Position numbers and translations under genes: made by a program. DNA of 64,000 bases, taken from the NCBI RefSeq assembly GCF_002204745.1, contig NZ_NIRR01000001.1:124001-188000 (forward strand), read 5' to 3'. Source of the DNA: Hymenobacter amundsenii. Its GTDB lineage: Bacteria; Bacteroidota; Bacteroidia; Cytophagales; Hymenobacteraceae. This document shows positions 44,227-46,978 of this stretch, one piece after another. The stretch's first letter is position 1; each line of letters begins with the position of its first letter. The notes beneath the pieces were generated by a model. The model ran no database searches, had not been told where the DNA came from, and saw only the letters and a program-made list of their open reading frames with translations.

Positions 44227-45219
44227 TCATTCGCTCAGCCCCAGCGCGTGCCGCTCGTTCTTGGCCACGTTGGCCAGGGTCCAGGTGATTTCGCGGGTGA
44301 ACGGATGCTGGCGGACGGGGCAGGCGGCAACGTGGCAGTGCGAGCAGGCGGCGAAGGTGCAGGGGTCAGCGTGCACGAACATCTCGACCGGCACCCCGAA
44401 CTCCTGGGTTACGACTTCCTCGATGCCGTGGACCTGCTCGTGGGTTTGTTCCAGGCTCAGGTAGTAGGGCATCGTTACGTGGCAGTCGATGTGCAGGCTG
44501 GCCCCGTAGCGCTGCACGCGCAGGTTGTGCACATCGATCCAGGCGGGCAGGCGGTGCTCCTGAAGCTCGGCCACCACCTGCTGCACGGTGGTCACGTCGG
44601 CCTCGTCCATGAGGCCCGACACCGAGCGGCGCACCATGCGGTAGCCATTCACCACGATGAACACGCCCAGCAGCAAGGCCGCCAGCGAGTCGTAAAGCAC
44701 GTTATCGGTGAGGATGACCATGCCCAGCGCCAAGCACGAAACGAAGGTGCTCACGGCATCGAGGTAGAGGTGCTGGCCGTCGCCGACCAGGGCCGGCGAA
44801 TGGTGCTGACGGCCGGCCCGCACCAACAGGAAGCCCACCACCAAGTTCACGAGGGCCGTGGCGGCCAGCAGCGCAATACCCCAGTCGGGACGGGCAATGG
44901 CCTGAGGATGCAGCAGGCTCTGAAGGGCCGCATAGAATATGTAGCCACCGGCCATCAGAATCAGCCCGCCCTCAAAACCCACCGACAAATACTCGATTTT
45001 ACCGTGGCCGTAAGGGTGGTTTTCGTCCTTGGGCAGGCTGGCCAGATAGATGCTGTAGAGCGCAAAGCCACTGGCCACGACGTTAATAATAGACTCCAGC
45101 GCGTCCGTTAGCACCACCTGGGAGCGGGTAATGGCCCAGGCGTAAAACTTTATCCCGATCAGCCCCACACTCACGACGAGCGAGAGGATGGCGTAGCGGG
45201 TTTTGAGCGGTAAGGGCAT
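44227..45219 (-). CDS. Cation diffusion facilitator (CDF) metal exporter with Cys/His tail
   Basis: The 330-residue product has six membrane helices and the metal-site motifs TDALESIINV and DGQHLYLDAVSTFV (HxxxD). A cytoplasmic ferredoxin-like domain follows and then an unusual Cys/His-rich C-terminus (HADPCTFAACSHCHVAACPVRQHPF), not found in basic CDF proteins. It exports divalent metals against protons. It is divergent from the Nramp importer at 45485, with a metal-regulator-like palindrome in the gap, so metal homeostasis is the shared theme. ATG 45219 was preferred to one at 45375, which lies in the promoter region. Confidence 0.88.
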   Translation of the reverse strand: MPLPLKTRYAILSLVVSVGLIGIKFYAWAITRSQVVLTDALESIINVVASGFALYSIYLASLPKDENHPYGHGKIEYLSVGFEGGLILMAGGYIFYAALQSLLHPQAIARPDWGIALLAATALVNLVVGFLLVRAGRQHHSPALVGDGQHLYLDAVSTFVSCLALGMVILTDNVLYDSLAALLLGVFIVVNGYRMVRRSVSGLMDEADVTTVQQVVAELQEHRLPAWIDVHNLRVQRYGASLHIDCHVTMPYYLSLEQTHEQVHGIEEVVTQEFGVPVEMFVHADPCTFAACSHCHVAACPVRQHPFTREITWTLANVAKNERHALGLSE

Positions 45220-45418: not shown

Positions 45419-45434
45419 TTTAGGTAAGCCTAAA
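45419..45434. promoter_or_regulatory. DtxR/MntR-like operator before the Nramp gene
   Basis: TTTAGGTAAGCCTAAA is an inverted repeat (TTTAGG/CCTAAA) with a 4-nt spacer, the half-site TTAGG...CCTAA of DtxR/MntR/IdeR-type repressors. It lies about 50 nt before ATG 45485, next to a TACTTTGT box, in position to block transcription when metal is plentiful. A regulator gene was not found in the window. Confidence 0.55.
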
Positions 45435-45484
45435 AATTCCCGTACTTTGTAAGAAGTACCAACACCGCTTCCCTACCGGCTCCT

Positions 45485-46858
45485 ATGCCCTCTACGTTAC
45501 CCGCTTCCGCCGATACGCCCTTAATCACCACCCCGGATGCCGGTTGGCGGCACGCCCGCCGGGCCAATTCGCTGCCCGAAGTACACGGCTCCATCACGGT
45601 ACCGCCCGAAGGGGCCTCGTTCTGGCGCAAGCTCTGGGCCTTTACCGGGCCGGGCCTGATGGTGGCCGTGGGCTACATGGACCCCGGCAACTGGGCCACC
45701 GACATCGAGGGCGGCGCCCGCTACGGCTACATGCTGCTGTCGGTGGTTCTGATTTCCAACTTCTTCGCCATGCTGCTCCAGCACCTGGCCGTGAAGCTGG
45801 GCATCGTAACGGGCCGCGACCTGGCCCAGGCCTGCCGCGACCATTACTCCCGGCCCGTGTCGTTCGTGCTCTGGGTGCTGTGCGAAATTGCCATTGCCGC
45901 CTGCGACTTGGCCGAAGTCATCGGCTCGGCCATTGCCATCAACCTGCTGTTCGGCATCCCGCTCGTCTGGGGTGTGGTGCTCACCATTCTCGATGTGCTG
46001 GTGGTGCTCTTCTTCCAGAGCAAGGGCTTCCGCATCATCGAAAGCATCGTGGCAGGCCTGATTTTCGTGATTTTCGGGTGTTTCGTCTACGAAATTATTG
46101 CCTCCCACCCCGACTATTTTGCCCTGGCGGAGGGCCTGATTCCTAAGCCCCAGATTGTAACCGACCCCCACGCGCTGTACCTGGCCATCGGTATTCTGGG
46201 CGCCACCGTGATGCCCCACAACCTGTATCTGCACTCCAGCATCGTGCAAACCCGGGCCATCGAGCAAACCGAGCCGGGCAAGCGCATGGCCATCAAGTTT
46301 GCCACTATCGACAGCACCGTGGCCCTGTTTCTGGCCTTCTTCGTGAACGGGGCCATTCTGGTGGTATCGGCCGCCACGTTCCACTCCAACAACCTGCGCG
46401 ACGTGGCCGACATTTATGACGCCCACAAGTTGCTGACGCCGGTGCTGGGCGCGGGCGCGGCCTCGGCCCTGTTTGCGGTGGCGTTGCTGGCTTCGGGCCA
46501 GAACTCGACCCTGACGGGCACCCTGGCCGGGCAAATCGTGATGGAAGGCTTCCTCGATATCAAGCTCAAACCCTGGATGCGCCGCCTCATCACCCGCGGT
46601 ATTGCCGTGGTGCCGGCCCTCATCGTAACCATCCTGTACGGCGAGAAGGGCACGAGCGAACTGCTCGTGCTCAGCCAGGTGGTGCTGTCGCTGCAACTAA
46701 GCTTCGCCGTGATTCCGCTGGTACTCTTCACCGGCAGCAAGCTTAAAATGGGCGTCTTCGTGAACAAGTCCTGGCTGCAGGCCGTCTGCTGGATCGTGTC
46801 GGCCATTATTCTGGTCCTGAACGGTTACCTGTTGTTCCAGTTTTTCACGGGGGCGTAA
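45485..46858 (+). CDS. mntH: Nramp-family divalent metal importer (MntH-like)
   Basis: The 457-residue product has the Nramp signature DPGN in VAVGYMDPGNWATDIEGGARYGY and the MPHNLYLHSSIVQTR motif that forms the Mn/Fe site, plus about eleven membrane helices. It has a cytoplasmic N-terminal tail of about 50 residues rich in Pro/Ser. Proton-coupled import of Mn(II) or Fe(II) is the family role. The operator at 45419-45434 fits metal-dependent repression. Confidence 0.93.
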   Translation: MPSTLPASADTPLITTPDAGWRHARRANSLPEVHGSITVPPEGASFWRKLWAFTGPGLMVAVGYMDPGNWATDIEGGARYGYMLLSVVLISNFFAMLLQHLAVKLGIVTGRDLAQACRDHYSRPVSFVLWVLCEIAIAACDLAEVIGSAIAINLLFGIPLVWGVVLTILDVLVVLFFQSKGFRIIESIVAGLIFVIFGCFVYEIIASHPDYFALAEGLIPKPQIVTDPHALYLAIGILGATVMPHNLYLHSSIVQTRAIEQTEPGKRMAIKFATIDSTVALFLAFFVNGAILVVSAATFHSNNLRDVADIYDAHKLLTPVLGAGAASALFAVALLASGQNSTLTGTLAGQIVMEGFLDIKLKPWMRRLITRGIAVVPALIVTILYGEKGTSELLVLSQVVLSLQLSFAVIPLVLFTGSKLKMGVFVNKSWLQAVCWIVSAIILVLNGYLLFQFFTGA

Positions 46859-46860
46859 CA

Positions 46861-46920
46861 GATAGTAGCGCGAACCGAAGGACAGCGCAGCTAAGCTTCT
46901 GCTTCGCGCTACTACTATCC
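46861..46920. repeat. Imperfect hairpin downstream of mntH
   Basis: AGTAGCGCGAA (about 46865-46875) and TTCGCGCTACT (about 46902-46912) are inverse copies; outside them GATAGT and ACTATC also match with a 3-nt gap. It immediately follows the mntH stop. It may act as terminator or be another intergenic palindrome. Confidence 0.6.
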
Positions 46921-46962
46921 GAAAAGCCACACGTCCGTTGTGGCCTTTCTTTCGCTCTTAGA

Positions 46963-46978
46963 TTTAGATTAATCTAAA
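46963..46978. promoter_or_regulatory. DtxR/MntR-like palindrome before the TonB receptor
   Basis: TTTAGATTAATCTAAA is a perfect 16-bp palindrome, 23 nt before ATG 47001, with the outer TTTAG/CTAAA shared with the mntH operator. The inner bases differ (ATTAAT against GTAAGC). Its position suggests shared metal-dependent control of receptor and importer. Confidence 0.5.

Follow-up and report, generated by a model that had tools for sequence, protein, structure and literature searches.

Shared palindromic boxes suggest DtxR/MntR-type control of an Nramp importer and a TonB-dependent receptor, a candidate outer-membrane manganese gate, in Hymenobacter

Results

Genes and boxes at the mntH locus

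The window, by which we mean the whole 64,000-nucleotide stretch of Hymenobacter amundsenii DNA that was analyzed, contains a gene for an Nramp-family importer (mntH), a divergent gene for a CDF-family exporter and, downstream of mntH, genes for a TonB-dependent receptor (hereafter type A) and a beta-barrel-type protein (Table 1). A sequence-only reading of this DNA had named the first three products as an Nramp importer, a CDF exporter and a TonB receptor, and profile scores bore out all three. MntH scored 634 bits against NF001923 (cut-off 430) and 445 bits against PF01566, and both DPGN and MPH, which we take to be the signatures of Nramp MntH importers, can be read in its translation. The exporter scored 155 bits against PF01545 and also matched PF16916, and its best NCBIfam match was MntE at 192 bits, below the cut-off of 500. 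The receptor matched PF13715 (CarboxypepD), PF07715 (plug) and PF00593 (barrel), the latter two over cut-off, and its AlphaFold model (pLDDT 87) has the TonB-receptor fold, with residues 186-191, including D189, E190 and H191, below pLDDT 50; an earlier model built from 16 close sequences (pLDDT 59) was left out of the analysis. Its translated plug (residues 117-222) contains no cysteine and hence no CxxC motif. The downstream barrel protein matched PF13557 (Phenol_MetA_deg) at 59 bits.

Table 1. Positions of genes and putative regulatory elements in the window.
Feature	Position	Strand	Comment
CDF-family cation exporter	44227..45219	-	divergent from mntH; 45219 taken as the start codon
Box 1, TTTAGGTAAGCCTAAA	45419..45434	.	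putative mntH operator; exact pattern upstream of mntH in 117/117 genomes
TACTTTG	45443..45449	+	candidate -7 promoter element just past box 1 (inferred)
mntH, Nramp-family Mn(II)/Fe(II) importer, 457 aa	45485..46858	+	NF001923, PF01566
Intrinsic-terminator-like hairpin and T-rich run	46921..46953	+	between mntH and box 2
Box 2, TTTAGATTAATCTAAA	46963..46978	.	putative receptor-gene operator; second box <=500 bp after mntH in 64/118 genomes
TonB-dependent receptor type A, 820 aa	47001..49463	+	candidate outer-membrane Mn(II) importer
PF13557 beta-barrel-type protein, 289 aa	51607..52476	+	may be an accessory outer-membrane channel, judging by relatives

Box 1 is separated by 50 bases from the mntH ATG (45485) and box 2 by 22 bases from the receptor ATG (47001). 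The two had been claimed to have matching outer half-sites; both palindromes are real, lie at the coordinates first given for them and are exact copies of TTTAG-N6-CTAAA with identical outer TTTAG and CTAAA. The window has two copies of this exact pattern where dinucleotide shuffles predict 0.06, and 1 of 100 shuffles reached two. When up to two mismatches were allowed, the window contained 14 matches against 14.4 expected, which is the chance level. A motif search of the whole 4.58-Mb genome found three exact copies, the third of which lies between convergent genes, where it overlaps an ORF end, and the exact reversed-pattern control had 10 matches in the same genome. With three exact matches against 10 for the control, and inexact matches at chance, we rejected genome-wide enrichment as evidence. 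Because the counts are not enriched, the evidence for the boxes rests on their position and conservation. For a wider regulon in this genome, two sites with one mismatch were read (C94:927 and C86:3788), and neither precedes a recognizable metal gene.

The box upstream of mntH is conserved across Hymenobacter

We found mntH in all 120 Hymenobacter genomes searched and examined its surroundings in 118 of them (our own and 117 others), leaving out two in which mntH was fragmentary (G097 and G108). An exact TTTAG-N6-CTAAA was present within 420 bp upstream of mntH in every one of the 117 genomes with upstream DNA; in the remaining 118th genome the locus (L197) begins at a contig edge. The search pattern itself sets the ten outer bases of the box. 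Immediately inside them, the base was G or A on the left in 117 of 117 mntH boxes and C or T on the right in 116 of 117, and the four central bases and the distance from box to gene vary. Elsewhere in the examined regions (about 8-16 kb each) there were no other exact copies, except within 500 bp behind mntH. The CDF exporter gene is divergent from mntH, at a distance of at most 450 bp, in 103 of the 118 genomes.

The extended pattern TTTAGRN4YCTAAA gave 55 sites in 25 whole genomes, 1 to 6 per genome, and by hand count 41 of these were located at mntH or at the gene after it; the total for the reversed control was 30. Of the 14 sites away from mntH, eight (seven in relatives and the third site of our own genome) were compared by eye and had no gene in common. 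In one relative (L370; G113:C94:238003), at a locus unlinked to mntH, a gene whose product resembles a CarboxypepD-type outer-membrane protein has an exact box about 40 bp upstream, which makes it a possible further member of the regulon.

One copy was counted in genomes with two mntH genes; in G024 and G117 this was the copy beside a type A receptor, though the other scored slightly higher. Three second copies outside these counts (L200-L202) all carry the box, and further mntH copies or fragments in G030, G092 and G093 were likewise kept outside the counts.

Second boxes, terminator-like hairpins and the gene that follows mntH

Within the 118 genomes, the gene after mntH encodes a type A receptor in 76 (defined as genomes with type A beside a mntH copy), and a second kind of receptor, type B, in 28. 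Nine others have a PF13557 barrel and no receptor, and the last five, one of them cut off by a contig edge, have none of the three. A second box was found behind mntH in 64 genomes, 37 times before type A and 27 times before type B. Among type A genomes, a terminator-like hairpin scoring at least 11 was present in 35 of the 37 that have a second box, between mntH and that box, as against only five of the 39 that lack one and 5-6% of composition shuffles; this strict cut was chosen because the finder lets many shuffles through at low scores (33 of 76). Read most simply, these comparisons suggest that a type A gene with its own box would form a unit by itself, and that one without a box is probably co-transcribed with the mntH gene it follows. 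When type A lies away from mntH, as it does in five genomes, at least one exact box is found upstream in all five. In one genome (L085 in G003) the type A gene is in two pieces with one internal stop, and both boxes remain.

Type B receptors are about 750 aa long and share only about 31-37% identity with type A in the N-terminal and plug regions. They fill the type A slot directly after mntH in 28 Hymenobacter loci (for example L096, L098 and L153), and 27 of the 28 have their own box and 27 of the 28 the plug motif NC[NS][VI]C[GN]TGDIH, which includes a CxxC. A thioredoxin-like gene is a neighbor of type B at one locus (L112). Homologues of the PF13557 protein occur downstream of type B in 28 of 28 genomes and downstream in 51 of the 76 type A genomes, and directly after mntH in the nine genomes without a receptor there, a distribution that suggests an outer-membrane metal channel.

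The two kinds of box differ in what follows them. The TACTTTG just past box 1 resembles what we take to be the Bacteroidota -7 promoter element, and TTTG was found 9-13 bases past the box 80 times for the 117 mntH boxes, whereas the same interval after second boxes contained it in only 1 of 64. The placement of TTTG past the mntH boxes makes repression by covering the promoter plausible.

A DtxR-family regulator is the probable reader of the box

A search for DtxR/MntR genes, which the sequence-only reading had called for, found a single DtxR-family gene in our genome, away from mntH, at about 55.1-55.8 kb of G000:C39 and encoding 219 aa. Its product contains the HTH (PF01325), metal/dimer (PF02742) and FeoA (PF04023) domains, all over cut-off, and has E102, E105 and H106 plus H79, E83 and H98. 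Glutamate in place of the Cys102 of iron-type DtxR/IdeR is, we assume, a Mn-type ligand, and the three best solved relatives, which include ScaR, all have Glu in the 102 column. At the position of MntR Asp8 the protein has Asn8 rather than Asp, which is present in the three solved relatives; we presume that this residue aligns to the ligand position occupied by Met10 in DtxR and Asp8 in MntR. In the available part of one report, ScaR is described as an MntR homologue (PMC4805248).

The core of the box equals the core of the published DtxR/IdeR consensus, TTAGGTTAGCCTAACCTAA. Half-sites of the DtxR type (TTAGG..CCTAA) are present, and TTTAGGTTAGCCTAAA and TTTAGGCTAGCCTAAA occur among the mntH boxes. 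An order-level sample of 148 Cytophagales genomes, 138 of which have a DtxR, included 20 genomes outside Hymenobacter with a close mntH (E < 1e-100). A dtxR gene whose product is 47-57% identical to our own adjoins mntH in 17 of these 20 loci, divergently in 13; 16 of the 17 carry an exact box, placed either in the gap that dtxR and mntH share or upstream of one of them, and L265 is the exception. Of the three loci without dtxR, one has a box and two (L267 and L268) have none, which makes three loci among the 20 that lack the box. Because the box is present both in these dtxR-mntH promoters and in the dtxR-receptor promoters described below, we consider it tied to a DtxR-type regulator.

Our genome also contains two Fur-family genes, and a Fur-family regulator could conceivably read the boxes, or they could be chance palindromes; the lack of enrichment of the two-mismatch motif in the window and the greater frequency of the reversed control in the genome would fit with this. 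Such an explanation is very improbable in the face of a box conserved in 117 of 117 genomes despite its variable position and center, of only 1 to 6 sites per genome in 25 genomes, and of dtxR as the recurring neighbor of boxed genes in a comparison in which dtxR was the gene sought.

The box or the regulator accompanies the receptor beyond the genus

We scanned 84,980 species genomes and used the best 80 of 576 receptor relatives. A quick tree of these 80, the window receptor and its paralogue in our genome splits, with an SH-aLRT of 100, into a clade of 52 sequences with the window receptor and a sister clade of 30 with the paralogue, which is a long branch of unsure placement. An exact box or an adjacent dtxR accompanied 40 of the 52 sequences in the window clade as against 0 of 30 in the sister clade (best 80 of 576). 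In the window clade, 27 sequences had an exact box within 750 bp and 13 more had dtxR next door, and in 12 of these 13 the core TTAG-N6-CTAA lies between dtxR and the receptor gene (best 80 of 576). Of the other 12 clade members among these best 80 of 576, four have ATTAG-N6-CTAAT, three follow a boxed mntH and two have dtxR just downstream; three of the 52 (L280, L320 and L326) had no box, dtxR or mntH in the flanks examined. A relaxed match was found in 1 of 29 scanned sister-clade sequences (best 80 of 576). In a blind scan for inverted repeats over the same best 80 of 576, TTTAG-N6-CTAAA ranked first in the window clade, in 21 of 51 sequences within 300 bp, and nothing comparable emerged in the sister clade, where the top repeat was found in 3 of 29.

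Outside Hymenobacter, mntH was found beside the receptor gene in only one of 42 clade members from the best 80 of 576 (flanks of at most 6 kb, some shorter); at this locus (L297) dtxR, the receptor gene and mntH are contiguous. Even at loci with no mntH found in the vicinity, the receptor gene is accompanied by the regulator or the box; again among the best 80 of 576, relatives from several further Bacteroidota families keep the box or dtxR beside the receptor. Taken together, the boxes, their conservation, the link to dtxR and the link to the receptor clade indicate that a DtxR/MntR-type repressor very probably controls both the importer and the receptor, and we hold with considerable confidence that one such regulator serves both genes. 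The control of both genes by DtxR/MntR, as originally suggested, is thus supported at the level of sequence by the dtxR gene, by dtxR-linked boxes elsewhere and by conservation in the genus.

The paralogue in our genome (L203; C80:15163-17496, minus strand) is 40% identical to the receptor, has no exact box and has no dtxR beside it. It lies near a gene for a small His-rich protein, and for this reason the sister clade may serve another metal such as zinc.

At four loci in Spirosoma and relatives (L278, L280, L295 and L310), related genes of about 121-124 aa lie upstream of type A, the one at L278 being His-rich. The box precedes this small gene at L278, L295 and L310, so that small gene and receptor gene there probably form one operon. 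A Bacteroidota-type TonB receptor also appeared on a contig binned as a Methanoregulaceae archaeon (L315); it groups with a Bacteroidales one, and the contig is probably misbinned.

Which metal is probably sensed and imported

The metal to which this regulon responds is most likely Mn(II), to judge from the MntH subfamily score, the Glu102-Glu105-His106 set in the regulator and the precedent of PgMntR, the DtxR-family regulator of Porphyromonas gingivalis. For the receptor itself manganese is the favored cargo, with only modest confidence, and this assignment follows largely from the regulator, because mntH stood beside the receptor gene in just 1 of the 42 clade members outside the genus (best 80 of 576).

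An iron-based version of the same regulon would have an Fe(II)-sensing repressor, a receptor that imports an iron chelate and MntH acting as an Fe(II)/Mn(II) importer. Nramp proteins transport Fe(II) as well as Mn(II), the core of the box matches the DtxR/IdeR iron box, the best NCBIfam matches of the receptor are to haem/haemoglobin and siderophore families, all far below cut-off, and siderophore receptors tie with others in the fold comparison. We nevertheless judge iron unlikely, since the regulator has Glu where we take iron-type DtxR/IdeR to have Cys102 and counts ScaR and SloR among its best solved relatives, MntH scores with the Mn subfamily, and the two Fur-family genes could presumably serve iron and zinc. 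In the part of the PgMntR report available, that protein moreover binds the promoter of a Mn transporter and not that of an iron transporter (PMC4805248).

Structural comparison placed the zinc receptor ZnuD of Neisseria meningitidis, a receptor for free metal ion, first by Foldseek E-value among solved folds, with the copper receptor OprC near the top along with haem receptors. ZnuD is only 19-22% identical to the window receptor, and in a second aligner, VIA-align, it tied within about 1 Z with Fiu, FyuA, ChuA and BtuB, that is, with siderophore, haem and cobalamin receptors. We therefore rejected the structural ranking as evidence for the cargo, since metal-ion, siderophore and haem receptors were not separated (about 1 Z). 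The regulator of ZnuD presumably differs from that of the window receptor.

The receptor might instead be controlled by Mn and carry zinc or another cofactor, for which one could cite ZnuD as the best Foldseek match and the rarity of mntH beside the receptor outside Hymenobacter (1 of 42; best 80 of 576). This is improbable, for the sister clade, the one that may be zinc-related, has the box in 0 of 30 sequences (best 80 of 576), and the clades differ at a few residues. The window clade has Asp569, His573 and Tyr576, where the sister clade has mostly His, then Asn, Gly or Gln, and mostly Gln (best 80 of 576); E183, D189, E190 and H191 are common to both clades in the same set. Asp569 and the differences at 573 and 576 would fit better with an ion harder than zinc.

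Discussion

A model for shared control of two membranes

In the reading that we favor, importer and receptor belong to one DtxR/MntR regulon and Mn(II) passes first through the receptor and then through MntH; judged from sequence, we give this reading as a whole a probability of roughly 0.68. When cytoplasmic metal suffices, a metal-loaded repressor of the DtxR/MntR family would bind both boxes and shut off MntH and, as a separate unit behind the terminator, the TonB-dependent receptor. Metal shortage would release mntH and the receptor gene together. The receptor, powered by TonB, would bring Mn(II) to the periplasm, either as such or in a simple complex, from which MntH would carry the metal over the inner membrane, and the divergent CDF exporter would relieve excess. 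We infer binding, repression, transport by the receptor and the roles of Mn as co-repressor and cargo from these comparisons. The locus had been described as a complete uptake route made up of importer, exporter and receptor; the part concerning importer and receptor is consistent with our analysis, and the CDF part did not hold, because an exporter falls outside an uptake route.

Comparison with known manganese systems

The closest parallel in regulation is Stenotrophomonas maltophilia, where, in the portion of a 2026 report available, MntR controls, from separate boxes, both mntH and the gene for a CQNC-type TonB-dependent receptor, a Mn function is proposed for that receptor, and a periplasmic thioredoxin-fold protein belongs to the MntR regulon (PMC13217887). 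The likeness lies in a DtxR-family Mn regulator that acts at mntH and at a TonB receptor gene through separate boxes. As that portion describes the Stenotrophomonas system, the window receptor differs in having no plug cysteines, so that it is not of the CQNC type, and in having no thioredoxin-fold partner that we saw beside it, and the exporter is MntP in Stenotrophomonas and a CDF protein in the window. Type B, with its plug CxxC, may be the true relative of the CQNC receptor, to which we liken it by description.

MnoT of Burkholderia thailandensis is described, in the accessible parts of two papers, as a Mn(II)-specific TonB-dependent receptor induced by low Mn (PMC8602904, PMC9334652). It resembles the window receptor by description, as a TonB-dependent outer-membrane receptor for Mn, and unlike the window receptor it works, as described there, with a type VI effector, TseM.

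Regulation in a Bacteroidota species is represented by PgMntR, which in the sections available to us differs from the window regulator in its twin FeoA domains, a bridging Cys108, metal-free DNA binding and a target, FB2, that is not an Nramp protein. We take FB2 to be a Feo-type protein. The shared ground is a Bacteroidota DtxR-family regulator with a FeoA domain that acts at the promoter of a Mn importer (PMC4805248, in part). According to the same sections, Mn tightens the binding of PgMntR to the Mn-transporter promoter, to which the apo protein also binds, and the iron-transporter promoter tested is not bound (PMC4805248). The word TonB is absent from the main text of that paper as available (PMC4805248), and in the open-access PMC literature we found no report of a TonB receptor under MntR/DtxR control in Bacteroidota.

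The literature thus already has a TonB receptor specific for Mn (MnoT) and one controlled by MntR (Stenotrophomonas), as far as the available parts of those papers go; what is new here is a different type of receptor in a different phylum, with a link to the regulator drawn from sequence comparison. How Mn crosses the outer membrane is poorly known, and only a few routes are named in the available part of a review (PMC9334652). Porin diffusion is described as enough for Burkholderia when Mn is plentiful, in the part of that report at hand (PMC8602904). If our reading is true, it points to a dedicated Mn gate in the outer membrane. Since the receptor clade is spread over several Bacteroidota families and comparison supplies both a candidate operator and a candidate regulator, the question is open to direct test in environmental bacteria that are harmless, and the box-free sister clade, with its short list of differing residues, offers a natural contrast for the choice of metal by the receptor.

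More tentatively, and at odds somewhat short of even, Bacteroidota might possess a family of their own of TonB-dependent Mn(II) receptors that are controlled by DtxR/MntR, carry no siderophore-type cargo and were set apart from the sister clade by a few changes such as Asp for His. The slot after mntH would then be modular, with three interchangeable gates: type A, the CxxC-bearing type B and the PF13557 barrel. For the last of these there is a looser parallel in MnoP of Bradyrhizobium, which is a channel and is not known to depend on TonB. The available part of the review lists MnoP as an outer-membrane Mn route (PMC9334652), and as described it is closer in concept to the PF13557 barrel that follows mntH without a receptor in nine genomes.
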